Of a stretch of DNA of 64,000 nucleotides, positions 8,050 to 43,051 are shown piece after piece (the stretch's first letter is position 1; every line of letters begins with the position of its first letter). The notes under the pieces are model-generated. The model did not search any database, was not told the DNA's origin, and worked only from the letters and a program-made list of their open reading frames with translations. The stretch covers positions 1 through 64,000 of the forward strand of contig NZ_QXPZ01000050.1 in NCBI RefSeq assembly GCF_003664595.1, written 5' to 3'. Made by a program: the position numbers and the translations under genes. This DNA comes from Atopobacter sp. AH10. GTDB lineage: Bacteria > Bacillota > Bacilli > Lactobacillales > Aerococcaceae.

Positions 8050-8994
8050 CTATTTCAAGTCCCCTTGCGCTTCGATATATTGGTAAGCAGCTTGACCAGC
8101 AATAGCCCCGTCTCCAACTGCTGTTGCAATTTGGCGCAAATGTTTTGCCCTGACATCTCCAATCGCAAAGATACCTGGGCGAGACGTTTGCATATAATCA
8201 TCCGTTTTAATCCACCCTTGTTCGTCCGTAATCCCAAGACTAGTGAAGGCCTCACTAACAGGAATAACCCCTACATAGATGAAAACACCATCTATAGCTA
8301 GTTCAGACTCCTCTTTGGTCTTGACATTTTGAAGACGCAAGCCTGTCACACGATGACTATCTCCCAATATTTCTAGTGGGACTGTATCGTATAGGAAATG
8401 CACATTTTCTTTTTCAAAAGCACGTTCTTGCAAAACAGCTTGGGCTCTCAACTTATCTCTCCGGTGCACAATCGTCACTGAATCGGCTAATTGAGAAAGA
8501 TAGGTTCCTTCCTCAACAGCTGAATCTCCGCCACCAATGACCACTACATTTTTTTTGCGGAAGAAATTCCCATCACAGACGGCACAATAAGAAACGCCTT
8601 TCCCTTGATATTCTTCCTCACCTTTAATTCCAAGTTGACGATGACTAGCTCCTGTCGCAATAATCACTGTCTTACTTTTATAATCTGCCTTCTTTGTATG
8701 GACGATTTTAATATCTCCTTCATCGCTAATACCAGTCACATCTGCCAATTGGTGTTCAGCGTCAAAGCTCATAGCTCCTTCATACATTTTATCGGCTAAC
8801 TCATATCCAGCAATACTCTTAAAGCCTGGATAGTTCTCAATATCTGCCGTATTGAGCATTTCACCGCCAGGAGCACCTTTTTCAAGCAACAAAGTAGACA
8901 AATTAGCTCGAGAAGCATAAAGAGCTGCAGTCATACCACCAGGCCCAGCCCCGATAACAATAACGTCATATACTTTATCTAGCTCTTTAGTCAA
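8050..8994 (-). CDS. trxB: Thioredoxin reductase
   Basis: 314 aa flavoprotein that reduces thioredoxin with NADPH. FAD loop [18 protein letters not shown] near residue 14, redox-active disulfide [16 protein letters not shown] loop [10 protein letters not shown] and the C-terminal FAD motif GIFAIGDVR are all visible. ATG at 8994 overlaps the end of galU by 8 bases, so the two are probably translated together. Conserved gpsA-galU-trxB order. No anomalies. Confidence 0.97.
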
Positions 8995-9877
8995 TAGACT
9001 CGCCTCTTTCTATTTTTTTACCTAATTCAAGTAGGTAGCTTCGCAATCCATCTTTGATCTCTGGATGATTTAGGCCAAATTCAATATTGGTTTTAACAAA
9101 GCCTAATTTATCCCCGATATCGAAACGTTTCCCCCTAAACGTTTTCGCATAGACGGAACGTGTGGTATTCAAACGTTCGATGGCATCAGTCAATTGGATT
9201 TCCCCACCACGACCTACTTCCTGTGTTTCAAGGAAATCAAAAATTTCAGGTGTTAAAAGATAGCGCCCAATAATGGCTAAATCACTTGGCGCATTTTCAG
9301 GGTCTGGTTTTTCAACAAACTGTTCTACTTCACTGATGTCTTCCTTAATTTGACGTTTAGGCGAAATGATCCCATATTTAGAAGTGTCTTCATGTGGAAC
9401 TTCCATAACGGCTACGCTTGGTGCATCATAGTTTTCATAAATATCGATCAACTGGCGGGTCAATGGGACTTCATCAGTCATCAAGTCGTCCCCTAGCATC
9501 ACGACGAAAGGTTCATTCCCCACAAAAGCTTTAGCTTGTAAAACAGCATCCCCTAAGCCTTTAGGATAAGATTGGCGGACAAAATACAGCTTGATCCCAG
9601 TGGTTTCTTCAACTAATTTCAAGAGATCAAGTTTACCTTTTTCTTTCAAATTAGCTTCTAGCTCAAAGTTAGAGTCAAAGTGATCTTCAATTGGTCGCTT
9701 CCCTTTACCAGTAACGATTAAAATTTCTTCAATTCCTGAAGCCAAAGCTTCTTCTACAATAAATTGAATAGTTGGTTTATCGACGATAGGCAACATTTCC
9801 TTGGCCATCGCCTTGGTAGCTGGAAGAAAACGAGTCCCTAGACCTGCTGCTGGAATTACGGCTTTTTTTACAGTCAT
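8987..9877 (-). CDS. galU: UTP-glucose-1-phosphate uridylyltransferase
   Basis: 296 aa from the ATG at 9877, chosen because GAAAGGAAA lies just upstream; a TTG at 9901 would add eight residues (MTARKEIK) unlike the family. It makes UDP-glucose from UTP and glucose-1-phosphate. Signature [23 protein letters not shown] at the N-terminus (nucleotide loop and catalytic Lys region), VMLGDDLM for the metal site, and FVEKP. It overlaps trxB by 8 bases. Together with pgcA it forms the UDP-glucose route. Confidence 0.96.
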
Positions 9878-16293: not shown

Positions 16294-16617
16294 CTATTCT
16301 TCTTCGATAACATAATTTTTCTTAAAAATGTTAACCATACCTTCAAAAACTTCTTCAGATAATAAAGCCAACTTTGGTACTTCTCTAATGATATTTCTTT
16401 TTAATTCTAAATAGCTAACATTTTCATTTTCTGAAAATAGCCTATTCAATAATATAATAATTTTCCCTCTCTCATCAAAAGTAATACCATTCTCCAAGCA
16501 AAAAAGACTTGGAGATACTGGGTTTAAAGCTGAATGTCCATGTAATTCGGCTAATTCAGAAATAGCACTTTCTATCAGATTTAACTTATCTAAAACATGC
16601 CCATCTACAATATCCAA
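16294..16617 (-). CDS. Small helical protein, candidate immunity partner
   Basis: 107 aa, acidic, no signal peptide or membrane segment, predicted mostly helical. It begins at a TTG (16617) placed 7 bases after AGGGAGG, and overlaps the end of the preceding secreted-protein gene by 13 bases, so translation is probably coupled. Size, position and composition resemble bacteriocin immunity proteins of lactic acid bacteria (about 100-aa helical bundles), but I do not recognise a specific family. The function is inferred from context only. It could equally be a small regulator or chaperone of the neighbour. Confidence 0.5.
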   Translation of the reverse strand: MDIVDGHVLDKLNLIESAISELAELHGHSALNPVSPSLFCLENGITFDERGKIIILLNRLFSENENVSYLELKRNIIREVPKLALLSEEVFEGMVNIFKKNYVIEEE

Positions 16618-17108
16618 CTAACTGCCTCCCTAATAGCAAGAGCTATATTAGTAACAACACTTCTTGAAACGCCAGAATTGACTAAACCTCTAAAAACAGC
16701 ATCGTATACTGCTTGAGCAGGAATATCAGTCCACTCTAACAAAGGGGTAAGAGAAGCAGCAATCTTACCAAAGTATCTATCAACTTGGTTTGCAACTGCT
16801 TTACCAGAAACAGATTTTACCGCATTTACAATAGCAGTTCTATTCTTTATAGCTTTCCTAATGGCAGTTTTACCAACTTTTTTCCAAATACTTCTTTCTT
16901 CTTTTAAATATTGATAATCAGATTCTTTAGGAACTTGATAAATAATATTAGAACTACTATCAGCTAAAACTTCAGTAGCTGGTAAAACACTCCCAGACAA
17001 AGTAACAGCTAACATTGATAAAGTGCCAAAAAATTTACCCACCACAAAATTTAACAAAGTGCCTTTTTTCGGAAGATTTTCCAGCAACACTATTTGACTA
17101 AGCGCCAA
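16605..17108 (-). CDS. Small secreted protein of unknown family, candidate bacteriocin/toxin
   Basis: Up to 167 aa. A signal peptide is clear (GKFFGTLSMLAVTLSGSVLP, then ATEVLA before DSSS), giving a mature part of about 118 aa that is basic in the middle (IWKKVGKTAIRKAIKNRT) and then amphipathic helical, ending in the hydrophobic REAVSWIL. No Cys in the mature part. The start is uncertain: the TTG at 17108 lies in IS-like repeats; GTGs at 17045/17042 or the ATG at 17015 would also keep most of the signal peptide, but none has a strong ribosome site. This suggests the original 5' end was replaced by an insertion. A small gene overlaps its 3' end. A secreted antimicrobial is a reasonable guess, not shown. 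Confidence 0.55.
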   Translation of the reverse strand: MALSQIVLLENLPKKGTLLNFVVGKFFGTLSMLAVTLSGSVLPATEVLADSSSNIIYQVPKESDYQYLKEERSIWKKVGKTAIRKAIKNRTAIVNAVKSVSGKAVANQVDRYFGKIAASLTPLLEWTDIPAQAVYDAVFRGLVNSGVSRSVVTNIALAIREAVSWIL

Positions 17109-34773: not shown

Positions 34774-34995
34774 TGCAATAGATCCTTCCTTTTTTTGGCA
34801 AACGTGTTGCTTGCATATTTCCTCCATTTTAACACACCTTTTCCCAAACTGGAGCTATCAACAGCTGAAATCTATTGCTTATAGCCCAAACAAACTTAGC
34901 CAATCGTCTCCCATAAGCGCTACTAGAGCTTTAAGGAAAGGTCATTTTTTTCATTACATTTAGGTTAGTTTATTATATTTACTTTCTCATTTTCA

Positions 34996-35046
34996 TGATA
35001 TAAAATTATTCAAACGTCAACGACGTTTAAGCAAAACAAAAGGAGG
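34996..35046 (+). promoter_or_regulatory. Promoter, palindromic operator and ribosome site of the radical SAM cassette
   Basis: Extended -10 TGATATAAA (TATAAA at 34999-35004) with a weak -35; just downstream a perfect palindrome AAACGTC-AAC-GACGTTT (35012-35028), well placed to bind a repressor over the transcription start; then AAAGGAGG (to 35046), 7 bases before the precursor ATG. Confidence 0.65.
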
Positions 35047-35053
35047 ATAAAAG

Positions 35054-35167
35054 ATGAAGCAACTATCTTTATATGATTTGAAAGCCAAATTAACTATTGA
35101 GACAGGTCAATCCATTCGCAATTGTGGCACAAAAAGAACCAAAAACACTAAATTAATTAGTTTTTAA
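35054..35167 (+). CDS. Candidate RiPP precursor peptide, 37 aa
   Basis: MKQLSLYDLKAKLTIETGQS, then IRNCGTKRTKNTKLISF. It has a strong AAAGGAGG ribosome site. The first half resembles a leader (acidic/hydrophobic, YDLKAKL); the second half is very basic, with one Cys (residue 24) and three consecutive T-K-x triplets (TKR TKN TKL). It sits directly upstream of a radical SAM protein with a PqqD-like N-terminus and an ABC exporter, the layout of ribosomally made, modified peptides. No match to a named precursor class comes to mind. The nature of the modification (thioether from the Cys, epimerisation, or C-C/C-O link) cannot be read from sequence. Confidence 0.7.
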   Translation: MKQLSLYDLKAKLTIETGQSIRNCGTKRTKNTKLISF

Positions 35168-35242
35168 TAATTACTACTTAGTTAAAATAGATTTATTCTT
35201 TTTTCAAGCATATTGTGCAAAGTGATCCAATCTAAGCAACAT

Positions 35243-35280
35243 CTCTTGGCTACGTTTTAATTTTAAAACATAGCCAAGAG
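35243..35280 (+). promoter_or_regulatory. Long hairpin between precursor and radical SAM gene
   Basis: CTCTTGGCTA pairs with TAGCCAAGAG (10 bp), one mismatch, then GTTTTAA with TTAAAAC (7 bp) around a TT loop. No T tract follows, so it is more likely a partial terminator, RNA-processing or 3'-stabilising structure that raises precursor over enzyme level, as often seen in bacteriocin operons. The remaining spacer up to 35581 has no other convincing gene. Confidence 0.65.
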
Positions 35281-35635
35281 TCATTTGCTCAGTTATTAAA
35301 ATCTATTCCTATTACCTATATTTCAAAATACTCCTTTCTATAGATATATGTCATTTATATCATTTTGTTATTCTTTTATTTATCACAAGCTTATTCAAAA
35401 GATTAACCATTTAATACGTTACTACGCTCGGAGGACTTGCCTATATGTAATTGTCTCAACATAAGTACAATCCTGATGCATTCTTAAGCTATTTACATCA
35501 CATTAATCCCTGATTATGTCATACACTTTCTAACAAAATCTTGCCATTTACTAAATCATCACATTAAAAATAGGGGGGCGCATTACTATACTCATCATCA
35601 ACCCAACAGCTTATTTACAATATTTTGGAGAAGAA

Positions 35636-36841
35636 ATGATACTAGATCTTCACAATCATTATTACCTTCTAAATCAGTATCAAGCAAAAATTTTAGCTAT
35701 GATCAACAACAATTTACCCTTCAATAGTATGGTGAATTACTTTAAAAATATAGTTATCGAAGACGATATACAAGCTATCACTACAATTCTTTCTTCTTTC
35801 ATTAAAGACATGATTGAAAAAGAATGGCTAGTAAAAAGTAGTATCTTTACTAGCAAAAAGATATTTGGCAAAAAAGGCTTATATTTCCCAAGAAAAATTG
35901 TCATAGAGTTAACCAATAAGTGTCATTTGCAATGTGTTCATTGCTTTAAAGAATGCAGTCCAAAACTTAGCTCTTCCATTGATTCAGACCAACTCTTCAA
36001 ATTTTTAAATAGCATCAAGGGAATTGTCTCTGAAATCCAAATAACTGGTGGAGAACCCATGATTCATCCTCAATTCAATGCCATAAGTGAATTTGTCAAT
36101 ACAAATTTTGACTATACCTCCATAACAACCACTGGGCATTTTATTAATACCAATAACCTCTCTGTTATGAGTTATTTTGATCACATTCAAATTTCACTAT
36201 ATGATTATGATCCCGCAATACATGATACTATAACCAAGAAAAAAGGAGCCTTTTTAAGAACTCTAGCGGGCATTCAATGTTTAACGGATATTAATGCCTC
36301 TTTTTCTGTCAGCAATATAGTTAGACATCAATTTTTGAATCGATTTGATCAATATATTCAGTTTTTAATCCAGCATCATATTCCTGAACTCTCCATGGGT
36401 TTGCTCAGCCAATTAGGGAGGGGCATCCCTATCCACAAGAAATGGTTGCTTTCAGAAAATGAGCTAGCTAACTTTCAAACTTTGCTACACATAAAAAGTA
36501 ACGAATACGTCAATCAAATAAAGATTCATACGTGGGACGATTCTGCTTGCTCAAGCTTTTTTAAAAATATAGACGGTCAAACTTTATCTTGTGGAGCAGG
36601 TTTATTAGAGTGGACAATCACTGAACAAGCTACTATCAAACCCTGTTCATTTTTCCCAGATTCCCTATTTTCAATGTCTGATTTAACTCATTTTGAAGAT
36701 CTTATCTCAAAAAAACATACTCAATGTATAAAAATGAGAATCAAACACTGGGAACGCGCTTTAAATAAAATTGGCCATTCCACTTCAGCTATATGCCAAG
36801 AAATCTATCAAGCAACACAAAAGGAGGAAGATTATGCGTAA
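35636..36841 (+). CDS. Radical SAM peptide-modifying enzyme with PqqD-like N-terminus
   Basis: 401 aa from the ATG at 35636 (TTTTGGAGAAGAA upstream). The [4Fe-4S] motif CHLQCVHC is at residues 96-103, GGEP at 138-141, and a GRG-plus-Cys C-terminal part (C305, C319-GAG, PC337, C364) looks like a SPASM/twitch domain for extra clusters. The first 75 residues (LDLHNHYYLLNQYQAKIL...) resemble a PqqD/RRE leader-binding domain. The similarity seems to begin before the ATG: the frame is open to 35555 and reads INPTAYLQYFGEE just upstream, so the true start may be an ATT at 35582 after AGGGGGGCG. It overlaps the exporter gene by 8 bases. Probably modifies the 37-aa peptide. Confidence 0.85.
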   Translation: MILDLHNHYYLLNQYQAKILAMINNNLPFNSMVNYFKNIVIEDDIQAITTILSSFIKDMIEKEWLVKSSIFTSKKIFGKKGLYFPRKIVIELTNKCHLQCVHCFKECSPKLSSSIDSDQLFKFLNSIKGIVSEIQITGGEPMIHPQFNAISEFVNTNFDYTSITTTGHFINTNNLSVMSYFDHIQISLYDYDPAIHDTITKKKGAFLRTLAGIQCLTDINASFSVSNIVRHQFLNRFDQYIQFLIQHHIPELSMGLLSQLGRGIPIHKKWLLSENELANFQTLLHIKSNEYVNQIKIHTWDDSACSSFFKNIDGQTLSCGAGLLEWTITEQATIKPCSFFPDSLFSMSDLTHFEDLISKKHTQCIKMRIKHWERALNKIGHSTSAICQEIYQATQKEEDYA

Positions 36842-38405
36842 ATTCTTATTTCTAACCGTTTTAACTTGTATTACTGCTGTATCAACGTTAAACGTGTTAT
36901 TTTCATATCAAATTCAATTTATTATTGACGCATTGGCTAAAAAAGACGTTGACGCTTTTTCAAAAAACATTTTAGTCATGGCTTTTATTATGATTTTGTT
37001 GCTCATTATCGAGTACGCCAGACAATATTTAAATACCTCTTATCTCAATAAAGTAGGCTTAGATATTCACAAAACCATTATTAGTAAAGTATTCCATTTA
37101 GACTTTCGCCAATTCAAAGAAAAGTCCAGTGGCGAATACATTTCCATTCTTAACAATGATATCGATAGAATAAAAACCTTCCATTATGATGCAATCATTT
37201 CCTTATACCAAGGGATTGTGACATTTATCATTGCCTCTATGGCTTTATTTTCACTTGACTCCATCACAGCTATCCTCATTATTTTAGTTTCAGCTTTCCC
37301 TATTTTAATTCCCTATCTGTTTAGGCATAAAACTCGATCAGTTACCAACAAAATATCTGATCAGCAATCCCAATACAACAGCTATTTGAAAGATTTTATC
37401 TCCGGTCTTTTAGACATTAAAAACTCTCATTCCTCGAAGCTATTTGTCGATAACGTTAATAACAAATATAAAGATGTCAATACAAGTGTTCAAGACGAAT
37501 GTCAACTTACCTCACTGATAAACGTTTTAATCGGCTTATTTTTCTACGGTTGTGTTATAGTGATTTTACTTATCGGTGGTCAGCAAGTTTTAAGTGGCGC
37601 CATAACAATCGGTGCTCTAACATCCATTATTGCTTTATCTAACGAACTTGAAATGCCTATCAACCTGATTGCAGACAATTTATCTAGTATCAACTCAGTT
37701 AAGGATATTAAACAAAGTTATGATCATCAATCAAACGAGCTAGTAGATGTAACGCATACAGCCAGCAAGCTAGAAGCATTGAACAGAATCCTTCTACAGA
37801 ACATCTCTTATTCCATCAACGACCATCAATTATTTAAAAACTTTACTTATGAATTTGTCAGAGGTCACAAGTACCTCATTATAGGTAGCAGTGGTAAAGG
37901 GAAATCTACTTTAGCTTATTTACTCACTAAAAACATCGAGCCTGATCAAGGAAGTATTTTATACAATAATCTTGATAGCCAACAACTGAGCTACGCCGAT
38001 GTGCAACAGCATATTGCCTTAATCTCTCAACAATCCATTATATTTACAGAAACACTCCTCAACAATCTACACTTATACCAAGATTTACCAGTCGATCAAA
38101 CTCAAAAATTGTTGCAGCAATTTAACTTAGAGAGTCGTTTTAAAGATCTAGATGAGCTACTCATCGATGATGGCAATCTCTCAGGTGGCCAAAAGCAACG
38201 CCTCCTCATCATTCGAGCCCTATTGCAACATAAAAACTTTATCCTATTAGACGAATCCCTTTCAGGCTTAGATAAAGAAAATTACGACTTGATTGAATCT
38301 TATTTGCTCAACAAAAAAGATCTATGTGTCATTAATATTTCCCATAGACCAACTAATCACATCGAGCAATATGACGCTATTCTTAATTTTGACCAATTAA
38401 ATTAG
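36834..38405 (+). CDS. ABC exporter (fused permease-ATPase), probable modified-peptide exporter
   Basis: 523 aa from the ATG at 36834, preceded by AAAGGAGGAAG and overlapping the radical SAM gene by 8 bases. Six membrane helices in the first 300 residues (type-IV exporter fold), then an ATPase domain: Walker A GSSGKGKSTLAYLL, signature LSGGQKQRLLIIRAL, Walker B FILLDESLSGLD, switch ISHRP. No N-terminal C39 peptidase domain, so it does not cut a double-glycine leader itself. Short for a full half-transporter; probably acts as a homodimer. Gene order implies export of the mature peptide and perhaps self-protection. Confidence 0.85.
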   Translation: MRKFLFLTVLTCITAVSTLNVLFSYQIQFIIDALAKKDVDAFSKNILVMAFIMILLLIIEYARQYLNTSYLNKVGLDIHKTIISKVFHLDFRQFKEKSSGEYISILNNDIDRIKTFHYDAIISLYQGIVTFIIASMALFSLDSITAILIILVSAFPILIPYLFRHKTRSVTNKISDQQSQYNSYLKDFISGLLDIKNSHSSKLFVDNVNNKYKDVNTSVQDECQLTSLINVLIGLFFYGCVIVILLIGGQQVLSGAITIGALTSIIALSNELEMPINLIADNLSSINSVKDIKQSYDHQSNELVDVTHTASKLEALNRILLQNISYSINDHQLFKNFTYEFVRGHKYLIIGSSGKGKSTLAYLLTKNIEPDQGSILYNNLDSQQLSYADVQQHIALISQQSIIFTETLLNNLHLYQDLPVDQTQKLLQQFNLESRFKDLDELLIDDGNLSGGQKQRLLIIRALLQHKNFILLDESLSGLDKENYDLIESYLLNKKDLCVINISHRPTNHIEQYDAILNFDQLN

Positions 38406-38511
38406 CTTTGTCTATCGTTTGCTTATCGAGGTCAATTTCGAGTACGAGCGCTTAAGTTGAAGCTAAGTTTTCTGTTAAATTTCTCTTATTTAAAACAAGA
38501 AGTGTAAAGCA

Positions 38512-38547
38512 AAAAAGAGCTAGTCCTTATATACTAGCTCTTTTTTG
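38512..38547. terminator. Bidirectional terminator between convergent genes
   Basis: AAAAAAGAGCTAGT pairs with ACTAGCTCTTTTTT (loop CCTTATAT); A/T tracts on both sides serve both strands: the exporter (+) and the ABC-2 permease (-). Confidence 0.9.
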
Positions 38548-38560
38548 CTGCCTAATTTGC

Positions 38561-39334
38561 CTAATTTGCGGAAACATAACGCTTCAATCCTGCTTTCCAA
38601 ACATAATAAACCGCCAGTAAGCCCAAACTATCTAAGGCCATTAACAGTAATAAATAGGTCTGATAACTATCTCCTTTAGCAATTAAAACTGGAAGATTCA
38701 AACCCATCAAAATTGGCACAAACCAGGTAAAGAAAAAGCGAATCCCTTTAGGATATATCACCATCGGCCTTGAAGAAAACTCTACTAAATACTCTGGGAC
38801 ACCTAAAATACTATCCGCATCTTCCACCCAAAAAGAAAGGGATACGGCCAGTTGATTCAAAATAAAGATCAAAATAACTGCCAAAAGCATGGTGAAGGCA
38901 AATAACACCAGCCTCAACACACTCATACTGTAATTTTGTATAAAATAAACTTGTACTCCTAAGCAAATCAACCAGTTAAAAAAGCTTGATACATCAATCC
39001 GATTCAATACAAAATACAGGAGAGAGTTAACTGGTTTCAACAAAAAAGGTTCAAGTTCGCCTTCCAAAATATACTCAGTTAAATTTTCATGCGATATAAC
39101 AAATAAAGTTTGATACATAAAACTGATACTAGATGCTGTTGAGACTAGCAATAAGTAATCCGTTTTTGTCCAATTTAAAATCGTTTCAGTTTGTTCAAAA
39201 AAGACTACGCCAGCAATTATTTCCACCCCAAAGAATAGGATTCCTATTAAAAAAACTAGGGCTGCCGACTTCCGATCAATCAACATTTCTTGAATGCTTT
39301 GACTGACCAATTTTCGCCACAATTTAAATGTCAT
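38561..39334 (-). CDS. ABC-2 type permease (DUF990-like), second subunit
   Basis: 257 aa from the ATG at 39334, which shares one base with the stop of the first permease (TAATG). About six membrane helices (AALVFLIGILFFGVEIIAGVVFF ; RLVLFAFTMLLAVILIFILN ; YLLLLMALDSLGLLAVYYVW). Contains EYILEGELEPFLLKPVN, a stretch typical of DUF990/YfiM-type permeases. Pairs with the next gene and the ATPase to form an exporter. The 3' end carries a 9-bp tandem duplication GCAAATTAG that repeats the last codons and stop. Confidence 0.82.
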   Translation of the reverse strand: MTFKLWRKLVSQSIQEMLIDRKSAALVFLIGILFFGVEIIAGVVFFEQTETILNWTKTDYLLLVSTASSISFMYQTLFVISHENLTEYILEGELEPFLLKPVNSLLYFVLNRIDVSSFFNWLICLGVQVYFIQNYSMSVLRLVLFAFTMLLAVILIFILNQLAVSLSFWVEDADSILGVPEYLVEFSSRPMVIYPKGIRFFFTWFVPILMGLNLPVLIAKGDSYQTYLLLLMALDSLGLLAVYYVWKAGLKRYVSAN

Positions 39335-40113
39335 TATGCACCCATTCCTTCGTATTTCTTTAAGCCCAATCTGTAACTCAATTGGTAAGCTACATAAAAA
39401 ATAAAGCTCCATCCTATAGCAACAATAATCAGCCAGACAATCTCCCGCTCATCCATTTGAAATTGCAAGGCTCTCGTGTAATGATAACCCACCAAAGCGA
39501 AAGGATTCAGCATCAACAAATGATAAAAACCCTTTGGCAACAAATTCAAAGGAAATAAAAGGCCTCCTAACAGGGTATAAGCAGCATTGAAGATCGACCG
39601 CATTGGCCACATTTGAATCAGCCAGAAGCCTAAATTACCTAATAAGGAAACAAACAAAAAGAACATGGCAACATTTACTATTAACAAGAGGGTTAAAAGT
39701 ACAGCATAGCTTGGTGAAAAACCCCTAAAAACCCCAAAAGCAATCACCAACAAATAAACTAGGAACTCCAGCGATTTTCCTCCCAAAAGTTCTGCAAAAT
39801 TATAAAACAAATAGGAATATGGTCTCAAGAGATGCATCGTCAACTTTCCTGTTCGAACCTGTTGACCCAAACGAACAATTCCCTCTCCTGAAAACAAAAC
39901 CATGGAAAAATTGACAAGAATAATATACACCATCATTTGTGTTTGAGAGAAATACCCTATTTCATCTTGACCTGAACTAGCAAAAATAGCCTGCCAGGTA
40001 AAAACCGACAAAATAATCGCAATCACATTATTAAACATGCCCGCTAGCAAATTGAATTTATATGACAACCTAATTGATAAACGATTTAAAAAGATGATCC
40101 AATATTTTTTCAT
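39334..40113 (-). CDS. ABC-2 type permease (DUF990-like), first subunit
   Basis: 259 aa, about six membrane helices (LLAGMFNNVIAIILSVFTWQAIF ; MMVYIILVNFSMVLFSGEGIV ; SLEFLVYLLVIAFGVFRGF ; LLLIVNVAMFFLFVSLLG). Motif RLGQQVRTGKLTMHLLRPYSYL matches DUF990-type permeases, which occur as ATPase plus two permeases. One-base overlaps with genes on both sides show a tight three-gene operon. Substrate unknown; related systems export drugs, viologens or peptides. Confidence 0.82.
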   Translation of the reverse strand: MKKYWIIFLNRLSIRLSYKFNLLAGMFNNVIAIILSVFTWQAIFASSGQDEIGYFSQTQMMVYIILVNFSMVLFSGEGIVRLGQQVRTGKLTMHLLRPYSYLFYNFAELLGGKSLEFLVYLLVIAFGVFRGFSPSYAVLLTLLLIVNVAMFFLFVSLLGNLGFWLIQMWPMRSIFNAAYTLLGGLLFPLNLLPKGFYHLLMLNPFALVGYHYTRALQFQMDEREIVWLIIVAIGWSFIFYVAYQLSYRLGLKKYEGMGA

Positions 40114-41060
40114 TATGCATTTTCCTTAAATAAGCGATAAATAATTTCTTCAAAACTTTCACTTTCTTTTTGGAAGGTTACTAGCTCCGATAGATCGATC
40201 TGGCCTTTAATCTTTTCATAATCTTCCAAAGCTAACCGGATACTGTTCTCCGTTTCTTTATAGGCCGTCAATTCTTCTGGAATTTCCTCCTTAAACTCGA
40301 TCACGTACTGATCTTGGGTCGTATATTTTTTCTTCAACCCTTCAATTGTAAGGTCATCTCGGACACTCCCCTTGATTAATACAATGACTCTTTCACATAA
40401 ATTCTCTATATCTTGCATATTATGAGAAGTAATAATAACGGTTGTGTGTTCATTTTGATTAATCTCTTTTAAAAACTGACGAATGGCCACTTGACTAGGC
40501 AAATCCAATCCAATAGTTGGTTCGTCCAAAAATAGAATTTGAGGTGAATGGATTAAAGCGCAAATAATTTCAAATTTGACACGTTCTCCCATGGACAACT
40601 TTCGAACAGGGATATTGAGTTTTTCGCTCAAATTCAACCTTTGCGTCAGATCTTCCAAGCGTTTCTTGAAAATCTCCCGGTCTATCCCATAAACAACCTG
40701 AAGCAAAGATAAAGTTTCCTTAGCAGGTAAATCCCAAATCAATTGACTTTTTTGTCCAAGGACAACCCCAATTTCTTTTAAGTAAGCTACATCTTTTCGA
40801 TAAGGAATATATCCATTCGCTAGCACACTTCCTTTATCTGTAGCTAATATCCCAGTCATGATTTTGATGAGGGTTGTTTTTCCTGCACCATTAGGCCCTA
40901 AAAGCCCAATCATTTCACCACGTTCAATCTGTAAATCAATATGAGAAAGGGCTGGTTCAAACTCATACTGCCGGTTAAAGAAATCTTTAATAGCTCCTAC
41001 AAACCCTTCACTTTTCTCGAATACTTTATAGTCGTAAGATACGTTTTTTACCTCGATCAT
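40113..41060 (-). CDS. ABC-2 exporter ATPase (NatA-like)
   Basis: 315 aa from the ATG at 41060 (MIEVKNVSYDYKVF; AGGGAC site). An in-frame extension to 41102 has no similarity. Walker A GLLGPNGAGKTTLIKIM, Q-loop VLGQKSQLIWDLP, signature LSMGERVKFEIICAL, Walker B ILFLDEPTIGLD, switch ITSHNMQD. The N-terminal insertion around FVGAIKDFFNRQYEFEP is typical of DUF990-partner ATPases. It has its own candidate promoter (41189-41216), so co-expression with the YcaO gene is possible but not required. Confidence 0.88.
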   Translation of the reverse strand: MIEVKNVSYDYKVFEKSEGFVGAIKDFFNRQYEFEPALSHIDLQIERGEMIGLLGPNGAGKTTLIKIMTGILATDKGSVLANGYIPYRKDVAYLKEIGVVLGQKSQLIWDLPAKETLSLLQVVYGIDREIFKKRLEDLTQRLNLSEKLNIPVRKLSMGERVKFEIICALIHSPQILFLDEPTIGLDLPSQVAIRQFLKEINQNEHTTVIITSHNMQDIENLCERVIVLIKGSVRDDLTIEGLKKKYTTQDQYVIEFKEEIPEELTAYKETENSIRLALEDYEKIKGQIDLSELVTFQKESESFEEIIYRLFKENA

Positions 41061-41188
41061 TTTGTCCCTCACGTATTGTTTTAATTTACCGCAATCTTTC
41101 AAATTGCTTTTTATTACTTTATTAACAATGTCATTTCATCCCTTAGCAACTTGTTCACAGACATTCCATACTGCTCTATTTCTTCACA

Positions 41189-41216
41189 TCTATAACAAGT
41201 ATAGCCTTCAGGTCAA
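41189..41216 (-). promoter_or_regulatory. Candidate promoter of the ABC-2 operon with inverted repeat
   Basis: Minus strand TTGACC, 16-base spacer, TATAGA. The -10 side overlaps a perfect 5-bp inverted repeat CTATA-CTTGT-TATAG (41190-41204), a possible operator. It lies just after the YcaO stop codon. Confidence 0.5.
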
Positions 41217-41225
41217 GGCATTCAG

Positions 41226-42386
41226 CTAGCTATTCAAACTAGAAAAGTTTATCTTTCTCGGAATAGCCATGACCCCCTGATTAACCACCTGAAAATTATC
41301 CGCTTCAAGAACAATAATTTTATAACAAGAAATCTCATTGTTAGTTTCAACTTCGTATTCATATCCATTCAAATGGTGCTTCTTTAGTAAGGTTAAAATG
41401 TATTGATATTGTTCCTTACAATTAGCGAAACTTACTTGGCTATTCATAAAATCAACATCAACTCTTTCAACCTCTTTATAGTCACAGGTCACCATTTTGC
41501 GATACTGTGGTACACTTTTAAATAATTCAAAAGTGTAGTCATCCATTCTTTCTTCTTCGATAGTATACAGTGCAAACGATTGGAATAGTTCTGACATAGC
41601 CCTAAACAAAGCTAACTCAGAGTTCTGTGATGTCCCTGAACCTTTTAGTGGCAGTTTTTTCAAAGCATCCGTCCATACATAATAACTATAAAATCCGTCA
41701 AATTCGGTCATATCAATCATATGAATCTTTGCATGTATCGTTTGTTCTAAATCACACAGCACATTCCGTAATGGTTGCGTGAGTGAACTAGGTCGGACTA
41801 CTCGAATCGGCTTATTTTTAGTCAAAAATGTTTCAACAAGATGAGTGGATAAAGCATTTCGTTCTAGAACTTCATTTATCGCGTGTATCTTTGCTTCATA
41901 AGGATTTAATCCTACTGCAAATCCATTGTTAGTCGCATATCTACTCACTATCTCATCACACAATCCTGCATTTTGAAAGATAAGAAATAAGGGAAAGGGA
42001 ATCTTTTCACCAGTATGCACATGCATTATATCAACAACTTCAACATCTTTATTCTTCTTATATAATCTTATAGGAAGCATGTCATTTAATTGGCTGTTTT
42101 TCGATCGTAAAGTTTCAATAGGTATATATTTTGATTCAAAAGTTGGTGAATCATCACAATAATAATGGTGTTCAATTGCTTCAAATAATGCTCCAGCTAA
42201 AGCTTGTTCTTTCCTTCCTTTTCCAGCTGCTATCGCCTCGCCAGAATTGTTTACCACTTCTACAGCATACAAACAACTATTCTTGCTTTTTACCATTCGG
42301 ATACTGTAGCTAGGACAAATGTCCGCCAATATTTTCTCAGCTATATGAATAGCTTCGCTCGTTAAAACGTCTCTTTCTAGGTACAT
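41226..42386 (-). CDS. Standalone YcaO-domain protein, probable peptide-backbone-modifying enzyme
   Basis: 386 aa. YcaO ATP-binding blocks are in order: GKGRKEQALAGALFEAIEHH (residues 55-74), NNGFAVGLNPYEAKIHAINE then VLERNA (153-178), and GSGTSQNSELALFRAMSELF (249-268). YcaO enzymes activate amide carbonyls with ATP to form azolines, thioamides or amidines. There is no C-terminal PxPxP tail typical of azoline synthases (it ends MAIPRKINFSSLNS), no fused or neighbouring E1/ThiF-like partner, no dehydrogenase and no TfuA, so the reaction is open. ATG at 42386; a 54-aa gene lies 59 bp upstream on the same strand and may be regulator or substrate. AT-rich and accessory in appearance. Confidence 0.85.
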   Translation of the reverse strand: MYLERDVLTSEAIHIAEKILADICPSYSIRMVKSKNSCLYAVEVVNNSGEAIAAGKGRKEQALAGALFEAIEHHYYCDDSPTFESKYIPIETLRSKNSQLNDMLPIRLYKKNKDVEVVDIMHVHTGEKIPFPLFLIFQNAGLCDEIVSRYATNNGFAVGLNPYEAKIHAINEVLERNALSTHLVETFLTKNKPIRVVRPSSLTQPLRNVLCDLEQTIHAKIHMIDMTEFDGFYSYYVWTDALKKLPLKGSGTSQNSELALFRAMSELFQSFALYTIEEERMDDYTFELFKSVPQYRKMVTCDYKEVERVDVDFMNSQVSFANCKEQYQYILTLLKKHHLNGYEYEVETNNEISCYKIIVLEADNFQVVNQGVMAIPRKINFSSLNS

Positions 42387-42445
42387 ATCTGCATCTCTTT
42401 CAAATTAGAGCTATTTTATCCAACGTCTACTAATGTGTACTCCTT

Positions 42446-42610
42446 CTAACAACTGCTCTGTTGAGTTTTCTCATTCATAAGATTTCTAGTCGTTTGCAAA
42501 ATTAAATTTCTATCTGCATTAAGCACTTTTTCAAAAAAATCTAATTCCTCATCTTTCAGTACAAAAGTATGTTCTTTTGCCCTATTTATTTCAGATCTTC
42601 TTCTACCCAT
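42446..42610 (-). CDS. 54-aa small protein: ribbon-helix-helix-like regulator or precursor peptide
   Basis: From the ATG at 42610, 7 bases after AGGAGG; an in-frame ATG at 42661 would run through the operator and is less likely. MGRRRSEINRAKEHTFVLKD starts it and MNEKTQQSSC ends it. The pattern basic start, one short strand (HTFVLK), two helices (DEELDFFEKVLNA; LILQTTRNLMNEK) fits a small ribbon-helix-helix DNA-binding protein, and two palindromes lie in front of its gene. Alternatively the Ser-Ser-Cys C-terminus could be a substrate for the YcaO enzyme that follows. I favour the regulator, at about 60:40. No homologue is recognised by name. Confidence 0.6.
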   Translation of the reverse strand: MGRRRSEINRAKEHTFVLKDEELDFFEKVLNADRNLILQTTRNLMNEKTQQSSC

Positions 42611-42629
42611 CTTCTCACCTCCTTTTTCT

Positions 42630-42711
42630 GAGTATTTTAACATACTCTCTAATGAGTGCATATGTATTTCTTAAAAAAATAATACATACTCTAATTTTAT
42701 AAACCAACTAC
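42630..42711 (-). promoter_or_regulatory. Promoter and two palindromes of the 54-aa/YcaO operon
   Basis: Minus strand: TTGGTT, 17-base spacer, TATTAT (-35/-10 about 42682-42711). Inverted repeats: TATGTATT/AATACATA (42661-42668 and 42681-42688) next to the -10, and GAGTAT-TTTAAC-ATACTC (42630-42647) in the leader. ACATACTCT occurs twice (42641 and 42685), suggesting repeated operator half-sites. Confidence 0.6.
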
Positions 42712-42789
42712 GCTTTTTTATCATAAAATACAATTAGAATACTATTACTAAAAATGACTTTTACCTAGCCTTATCCAGATTTTATATTG

Positions 42790-42890
42790 TCCCACTGACT
42801 TACTCGACTAAAAGAATATTGACCCCACTTTTTTTTGACCAATTACTAGCTCTCAGCTGTTGATCAGCTAGAAAATTGACATTTTCATTC
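42790..42890. other. AT-rich sequence of possible IS origin
   Basis: Between the YcaO operon promoter and the intron fragment. Minus-strand text includes TGTCAATTTTCTAGCTGATC and GTGGGGTCAATATTC, which look like multiple-repeat termini of IS21-type elements from memory. No transposase reading frame. Weak call. Confidence 0.25.
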
Positions 42891-42910
42891 TCAGGCACTA
42901 TTCAACTCAT

Positions 42911-42983
42911 TGTCTTAATCGAGTAGGACTCTGCCCATTAGTGGACTTGCACCACCAAGTTATTACCCATGCCGGGCGCACAC
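42911..42983 (-). mobile_element. 5' fragment (domain I) of a group IIC intron
   Basis: Minus strand from 42983: GTGTGCGCCCGGCATGGGTA, then GGTGGTGCAAGTCCACTA and GGGCAGAGTCC. This closely follows the 5' end of bacterial group IIC introns (for example the Oceanobacillus iheyensis intron: GUGUGCCCGGCAUGGGU). It starts right after the T tract of a terminator, the known insertion preference of this class. No intron-encoded reverse transcriptase or 3' domain V is found, so it is a remnant. Confidence 0.7.
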
Positions 42984-43033
42984 AAAAAAACAAGCAGCAG
43001 AGGGATTCCTATTTCCCAACTGCTGCTTGTTTC
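42984..43033 (-). terminator. Terminator of the sugar transferase gene
   Basis: CAAGCAGCAG (42991-43000) pairs with CTGCTGCTTG (43020-43029); minus-strand reading ends GTTTTTTT at 42984, immediately followed by the intron fragment. Confidence 0.9.
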
Positions 43034-43051
43034 TATTCTATTGAATGACTT

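Follow-up and report, generated by a model that had tools for sequence, protein, structure and literature searches.

This 64-kb stretch of DNA (the window) carries on its minus strand, in order, a 54-codon open reading frame, a standalone YcaO gene, an ABC ATPase gene and two PF06182 permease genes (Table 1). We put at about even the chance that this locus is a small RiPP cluster, in which the 54-aa peptide would combine an N-terminal core with a follower, the YcaO would act at an Arg-Ser/Thr amide, and the ABC-2 system would export the product. The 54-aa peptide is very probably the YcaO substrate. An N-terminal position of the core, whatever the chemistry, is the reading we moderately favour, and the formation of a macrolactamidine in particular is put forward tentatively.

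Organization of the locus and its genomic insert

The start of the 54-codon ORF is supported by a strong ribosome-binding site, with GGAGG located 7 nt 5' of the ATG. The stop codon of the peptide ORF lies 59 nt from the YcaO start, and a gap of ~165 nt separates the YcaO and ATPase genes. Scans of the operon for promoters and terminators returned site numbers about equal to those in shuffles. The cluster sits in an insert: in a genome of the same genus (G001; L097), pncB and the sugar-transferase gene are 113 bp apart with nothing between them, and the G+C of the insert is mostly 0.29-0.36, compared to about 0.37-0.43 in the flanks.

Table 1 Features of the YcaO cluster and the surrounding insert, in window positions.
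Feature	Position	Strand	Basis
Predicted precursor peptide gene, 54 aa, MGRRRSEIN...QQSSC	42446..42610 (42449-42610 plus stop)	-	Motif common to 12 distinct peptides beside related YcaOs
Putative N-terminal core, codons 1-9	42584-42610	-	Conservation stops past residue 9
Putative follower	42449-42583	-	
Precursor Shine-Dalgarno stretch (AAAAGGAGGTG)	42616..42626	-	Read from sequence
Standalone YcaO, 386 aa	41226..42386	-	PF02624; fold of solved YcaOs; clade (100/99) with Met-Gly-associated YcaOs
ABC-2 exporter ATPase	40113..41060	-	ABC_tran, E 8.7e-27; start ATG 41060 set by homologue comparison
ABC-2 permease 1, 259 aa, PF06182	39334..40113	-	Domain match and identity in four loci
ABC-2 permease 2, PF06182	38561..39334	-	Start ATG 39334 set by homologue comparison
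Low-G+C insert with cluster, ~8.2 kb, between pncB and sugar-transferase gene	34828..43051		Same-genus comparison and G+C

The same insert holds a second possible RiPP unit (35054-38405, plus strand). It comprises a 37-aa ORF (MKQLSLYDLKAKLTIETGQSIRNCGTKRTKNTKLISF) with a strong ribosome site as a possible precursor, a radical SAM protein (gene at 35636) whose nearest NCBIfam model, AlbA, is matched far below cut-off, and an ABC exporter with a weak likeness to the streptosactin exporter GggC. As it comes with its own exporter and possibly its own 37-aa precursor, we regard this radical SAM gene as a separate, unproven neighbour. Elsewhere in the window (16294-17108, minus strand), two adjoining small ORFs encode 167 and 107 aa. 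A hydrophobic stretch in the first is signal-like, and by eye the two could be a bacteriocin and its immunity protein.

The standalone YcaO

The intact YcaO recognized in the initial annotation is confirmed at its coordinates by a PF02624 match (E 3.1e-26, 92.9 bits, cut-off 25.7); TIGR00702 and TIGR03604 also match, both below cut-off. Its predicted model (pLDDT 81, pTM 0.85) shows a complete YcaO of ordinary fold, without any apparent extra domain, and the best PDB match is 6peu, a standalone M. jannaschii YcaO with a peptide (TM 0.71). The C-terminus (...PRKINFSSLNS) is without a PxPxP tail. The lack of the usual partners was likewise borne out, as E1/ThiF, TfuA and dehydrogenase domains are absent from the seven neighbouring proteins scanned, and a whole-genome search found TfuA in none of eight genomes, its own included. 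This genome encodes one YcaO. For actinobacteria, a passage of PMC8442711 states that most standalone YcaOs are without known function.

Distribution of related YcaOs

Homologues of this YcaO are rare and scattered, and reach distant bacterial phyla. With the window YcaO as query, two of 76 family genomes match, namely its own and that of Ignavigranum ruoffiae (G006). Seven of 395 sampled genomes of the order match, among which these two and Ligilactobacillus apodemi (G377) stand out. A profile of 13 YcaOs, searched against 398 genomes of the class, returned its own genome and G598 at E 1e-105 or better, followed by the next match at 9e-22; among 398 genomes of the phylum, just its own and G890 stand out. 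Around Nonomuraea, 84 of 394 genomes match at E 0.001, nine of the 84 better than 1e-30. Eight records of the plasmid collection match the window YcaO (Vibrio, Pantoea, Streptomyces, Acinetobacter, Nonomuraea); a plasmid search by the peptide alone gave no match. A profile of three YcaOs recovered 12 loci from genome contigs; a single-protein pattern search of genome contigs gave no match, and neither did the viral contigs searched.

In a tree built without the bottromycin and streptamidine YcaOs, the 18 YcaO rows from these loci group on a single branch (support 100/99), apart from the fused azole cyclodehydratases and the TfuA-type YcaOs. Most of the inner order is without resolution, with long rows for Mycobacteroides and Pantoea. 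The tree leaves out the truncated second YcaO of G890, four of the five YcaOs of Nonomuraea and related, an Inquilinus fragment (L024), the second Pantoea record and the Acinetobacter records; L. apodemi is represented by its second frame only (352 residues), and a planctomycete YcaO (L085) and that of G598 by the matched stretch.

Several of these loci have peculiarities of their own. The L. apodemi YcaO is split over two frames at an A run (L009:7061-8242), through sequencing error, mutation or slippage. In G890, a truncated YcaO occurs along with an additional copy of the MGKKGSEL peptide gene that is broken (L073:5053-5532 and 8714-9677). One planctomycete genome encodes two related YcaOs, of which L085 has an upstream MGSCYTGTW... 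peptide and L022 has none that we found.

A recurring peptide-YcaO-exporter operon

The peptide, the YcaO and the ABC-2 exporter recur in Ignavigranum (L003), L. apodemi (L009), Paenibacillus turicensis (L013) and a Eubacterium MAG (L015), with the same five genes in a different order in L. apodemi. Identity to the counterparts in these four Bacillota loci is 43-49% for the ATPase, 32-47% for permease 1, 33-47% for permease 2 and 23-34% for the YcaO. The exporter does not merely lie next to the peptide-YcaO pair, as annotated initially: its ATPase and both permeases are found with the pair in all five inspected Bacillota loci of the ABC-2 type, the window counted. The three components thus co-occur more than by chance. 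In two further Bacillota, G598 and G890, the peptide is present and the exporter is replaced by MFS or other ABC transporters, with radical SAM and cupin-like genes nearby. G598 has an elaborate version (L071:4255-13180) consisting of an MGSARTEI peptide, a B12-radical SAM protein, a cupin/JmjC-like protein, the YcaO and an MFS exporter, with transposase-like genes interspersed.

Across the relatives, the neighbouring genes comprise radical SAM, B12-radical SAM, cupin, ThcOx/nitroreductase, methyltransferase and UPF0489 genes, as well as MFS/ABC transporters; such tailoring genes are typical of RiPPs. The survey placed no YcaO homologue in an established pathway that acts on a different substrate. 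The UPF0489 protein of Ignavigranum (L003:7025-7846, minus strand) is encoded between the YcaO and the exporter and is peptide-arginase-like, its stretches DNHSD, EEHHELV and IDLDFFWC resembling three peptide-arginase motifs given in a passage of PMC12703449. No peptide arginase was found among the window proteins scanned.

The peptide and its conserved N-terminus

Twelve distinct peptides beside related YcaOs begin with MGxx[RSG][ST]E, always at residues 1-7. Their hosts comprise Bacillota, a Bacteroidia MAG, Vibrio and Mycobacteroides; a thirteenth motif peptide, from Vibrio europaeus, is nearly the same as that of V. lentus. Over the 12 peptides, the information content of residues 1-9 is 3.2, 3.2, 0.8, 1.4, 2.4, 2.2, 3.2, 2.0 and 1.1 bits and then mostly near 0. 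The sum for residues 3-8 is 11.9 bits, whereas 2,000 shuffles gave no more than 3.7. Ser or Thr occupies position 6 in all 12 peptides, and Arg is encoded residue 5 (residue 4 after Met removal) in 10 of the 12.

A Met-Gly ORF lies at most 330 nt upstream in 22 of 24 YcaO loci, as an inner start in the window and in the Eubacterium MAG, and ORFs of 35-80 aa with a ribosome site just upstream of related YcaOs begin with Met-Gly in 19 of 19 cases, compared to 32 of 567 background ORFs; these counts contain near-identical rows (five from Nonomuraea and related, two from Vibrio), and for some loci the YcaO start was assigned manually. As for the other two loci, the Met-Gly ORF of G598 lies ~4.8 kb upstream and the planctomycete L022 has none. 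Among the controls, 21 weaker YcaO matches, one of six ORFs with a ribosome-site-like stretch begins with Met-Gly. A later test on eight further actinobacterial loci yielded five Met-Gly peptides, one of them identical to the Mycobacteroides peptide, and three Met-Ala peptides, with several inner starts read by eye. A strict Met-Gly rule therefore failed for the wider clade; Met-Gly is not universal there, and the wider rule calls for a second residue that is small, not for Gly alone.

The C-terminal parts are charged and helix-like and have no common modifiable residue. A C-terminal motif written after looking at the peptides, L[STDK]xx[EDQ]xxx[LIFV], occurs in 9 of 19 peptides versus 0.9 in shuffles, and by eye fits one of the eight later peptides. 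The initial annotation had proposed the 54-aa protein as the YcaO substrate by way of its C-terminal Ser-Ser-Cys. The first half of this proposal holds up, with the protein as the most likely substrate, and the second does not: the window peptide is the only one of the 12 distinct motif peptides to end in Cys, and conservation is confined to residues 1-9. We rejected Ser-Ser-Cys as the substrate because it is found in the window peptide only and is not conserved.

The other proposal in the initial annotation was a ribbon-helix-helix regulator, which we considered as a DNA-binding regulator of the YcaO-exporter operon. The protein is indeed small, has a basic N-terminus and is encoded by the first gene of the operon. 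It matches no Pfam or NCBIfam family, however, and its AlphaFold model (pLDDT 68, pTM 0.30) shows at this low confidence one helix (20-51), a loose N-terminus and no strand. Given this model and the position of the conserved residues, at the extreme N-terminus and not in a strand-helix-helix core, we rejected the regulator as highly improbable.

Proposed pathway and alternative readings

Methionine aminopeptidase cuts before a small second residue such as the Gly here. We favour an N-terminal core because the motif register is fixed to the N-terminus and the Met in front of the small residue is removable, and also because relatives with quite different N-termini keep Met-Gly or Met-Ala and the remainder of the window peptide is modelled, at low confidence, as a helix. 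We infer the chemical steps, the role of the follower and the transport as follows. After Met removal, the core would read G1-R2-R3-R4-S5-E6-I7-N8, and the remainder would be a follower read by the YcaO. With Gly1 freed by methionine aminopeptidase, the YcaO would hold the helical follower and form an oxazoline on Ser5 by ATP-dependent activation of the carbonyl in the Arg4-Ser5 amide. An attack of the Gly1 amine on that carbon may follow, closing a four-residue macrolactamidine and leaving Ser5 free again. A protease would remove the follower, and the ABC-2 system would export the product; against the pathway, the insert yielded no dedicated follower protease. Macrolactamidine closure would need both the encoded Gly2 and Ser/Thr6, which could be why both are kept.

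The usual RiPP order, in which the YcaO would recognize residues 1-9 as a leader and the core would lie in the variable C-terminal part, deserves weight as a less probable arrangement. Taken alone, the MGxxR group, with its conserved N-terminus and variable remainder, fits such a leader with a C-terminal core as well. Against it, the motif keeps a fixed distance from the N-terminus and starts with Met-Gly, and relatives with other N-termini mostly keep Met-Gly or Met-Ala, whereas the charged, helix-like C-terminal parts offer no shared residue to modify. A slightly less probable variant retains the N-terminal core and has the YcaO make just an oxazoline or oxazole at Ser/Thr6, with no macrocyclization. 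The Ser or Thr present in every motif peptide agrees with this variant, as does the ThcOx/SagB-type oxidase gene of a Streptomyces relative, which points to azoles rather than amidines in that relative. It leaves the kept Met-Gly without explanation, though, and no dehydrogenase occurs among the neighbouring proteins scanned. In the macrolactamidine pathway, by comparison with bottromycin, the attacked residue 4 would be the mostly conserved Arg, followed by the invariant Ser/Thr, and in streptamidine the carbonyl under attack likewise lies before a Ser that ends up unmodified; opening of an oxazoline by the N-terminal amine would account for both.

Comparison with known systems

The methanogen YcaO family of MJ1094 modifies the large enzyme McrA. 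MJ1094 (6pe3/6peu) is likewise standalone and is the solved structure closest to the window YcaO by sequence (E 6.6e-8) and fold. In contrast to that family, the window YcaO neighbours a 54-aa peptide and an exporter, and it matches the NCBIfam model methan_mark_1 far below cut-off. As regards azole (LAP/TOMM) systems, neither an E1-like nor an ocin-ThiF-like partner is present among the seven neighbouring proteins scanned.

A passage of PMC12703449 lists 'MGXRRSSE', citing Mordhorst 2020, among uncharacterised precursor types near peptide arginases, and makes no mention of a YcaO. Its N-terminal motif is near-identical to ours, and the Ignavigranum relative has the arginase-like UPF0489 protein. 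Taking the motif from that one passage, the window peptide differs in reading MG-R-R-R-S-E, with one Ser before Glu instead of two, and the window has no arginase. Given the close motif and the one relative with an arginase-like protein, the window precursor is probably related to this listed type. The string 'MGXRRSSE' occurs in PMC12703449 only within the literature searched, and the same literature yielded no link between the motif and a YcaO, which is a weak negative as the search was without most subscription journals.

Streptamidine (AmiA/AmiD) resembles the proposed system in its standalone YcaO, in a short peptide that is not Ser/Thr/Cys-rich, and in an amidine formed with an N-terminal amine; as described in PMC8442711, the carbonyl on which the amidine closes precedes a Ser, and this Ser is left unmodified. 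It differs in its core, HLSATH, which lies inside the precursor between leader and follower. Its main cluster type, in the same source passages, has FecBCDE iron transporters, a hydrolase and a flavin dehydrogenase, none of which is seen at the window, and the ami gene set was not seen beside the window YcaO.

Bottromycin biosynthesis, in the passages of PMC5103208 and PMC7136475 that describe it, combines an N-terminal core and a follower, a need for Met removal and standalone YcaOs, one of which is proposed to take part in an attack of Gly1 on the Val4-Val5 amide. The likeness to our cluster extends to the Met-Gly start of the precursor (BtmD), the core-follower order proposed here and YcaOs without E1 or TfuA (BtmE, BtmF). 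Bottromycin clusters have two YcaOs, an amidohydrolase, radical SAM methyltransferases and an M17 peptidase, whereas the window operon has one YcaO and none recognized of these enzyme types. The bottromycin precursor family NF033414 matched none of 11 and none of 9 peptides with E allowed up to 10 and HMMER's filters in place, and no peptide matched the NCBIfam RiPP precursor models.

The conserved N-terminal substrate motif offers a direct and cheap test of function for one clade of standalone YcaOs, and it places in a biochemical context an orphan precursor type for which the passage in print gives a motif name only. If the proposed pathway is true, the window encodes a minimal system, of three parts, by which peptide backbones could be modified at the N-terminus in Gram-positive bacteria. 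More speculatively, and with the odds against it, we postulate a cross-phylum RiPP class of standalone YcaOs and extreme N-terminal cores, whose common scaffold would be a four-residue macrolactamidine (Gly1 onto residue 4, via a Ser/Thr5 oxazoline). The window would then represent its minimal bacillotal version, which needs no more than peptide, YcaO and exporter, and bottromycin would be a specialized actinobacterial cousin.
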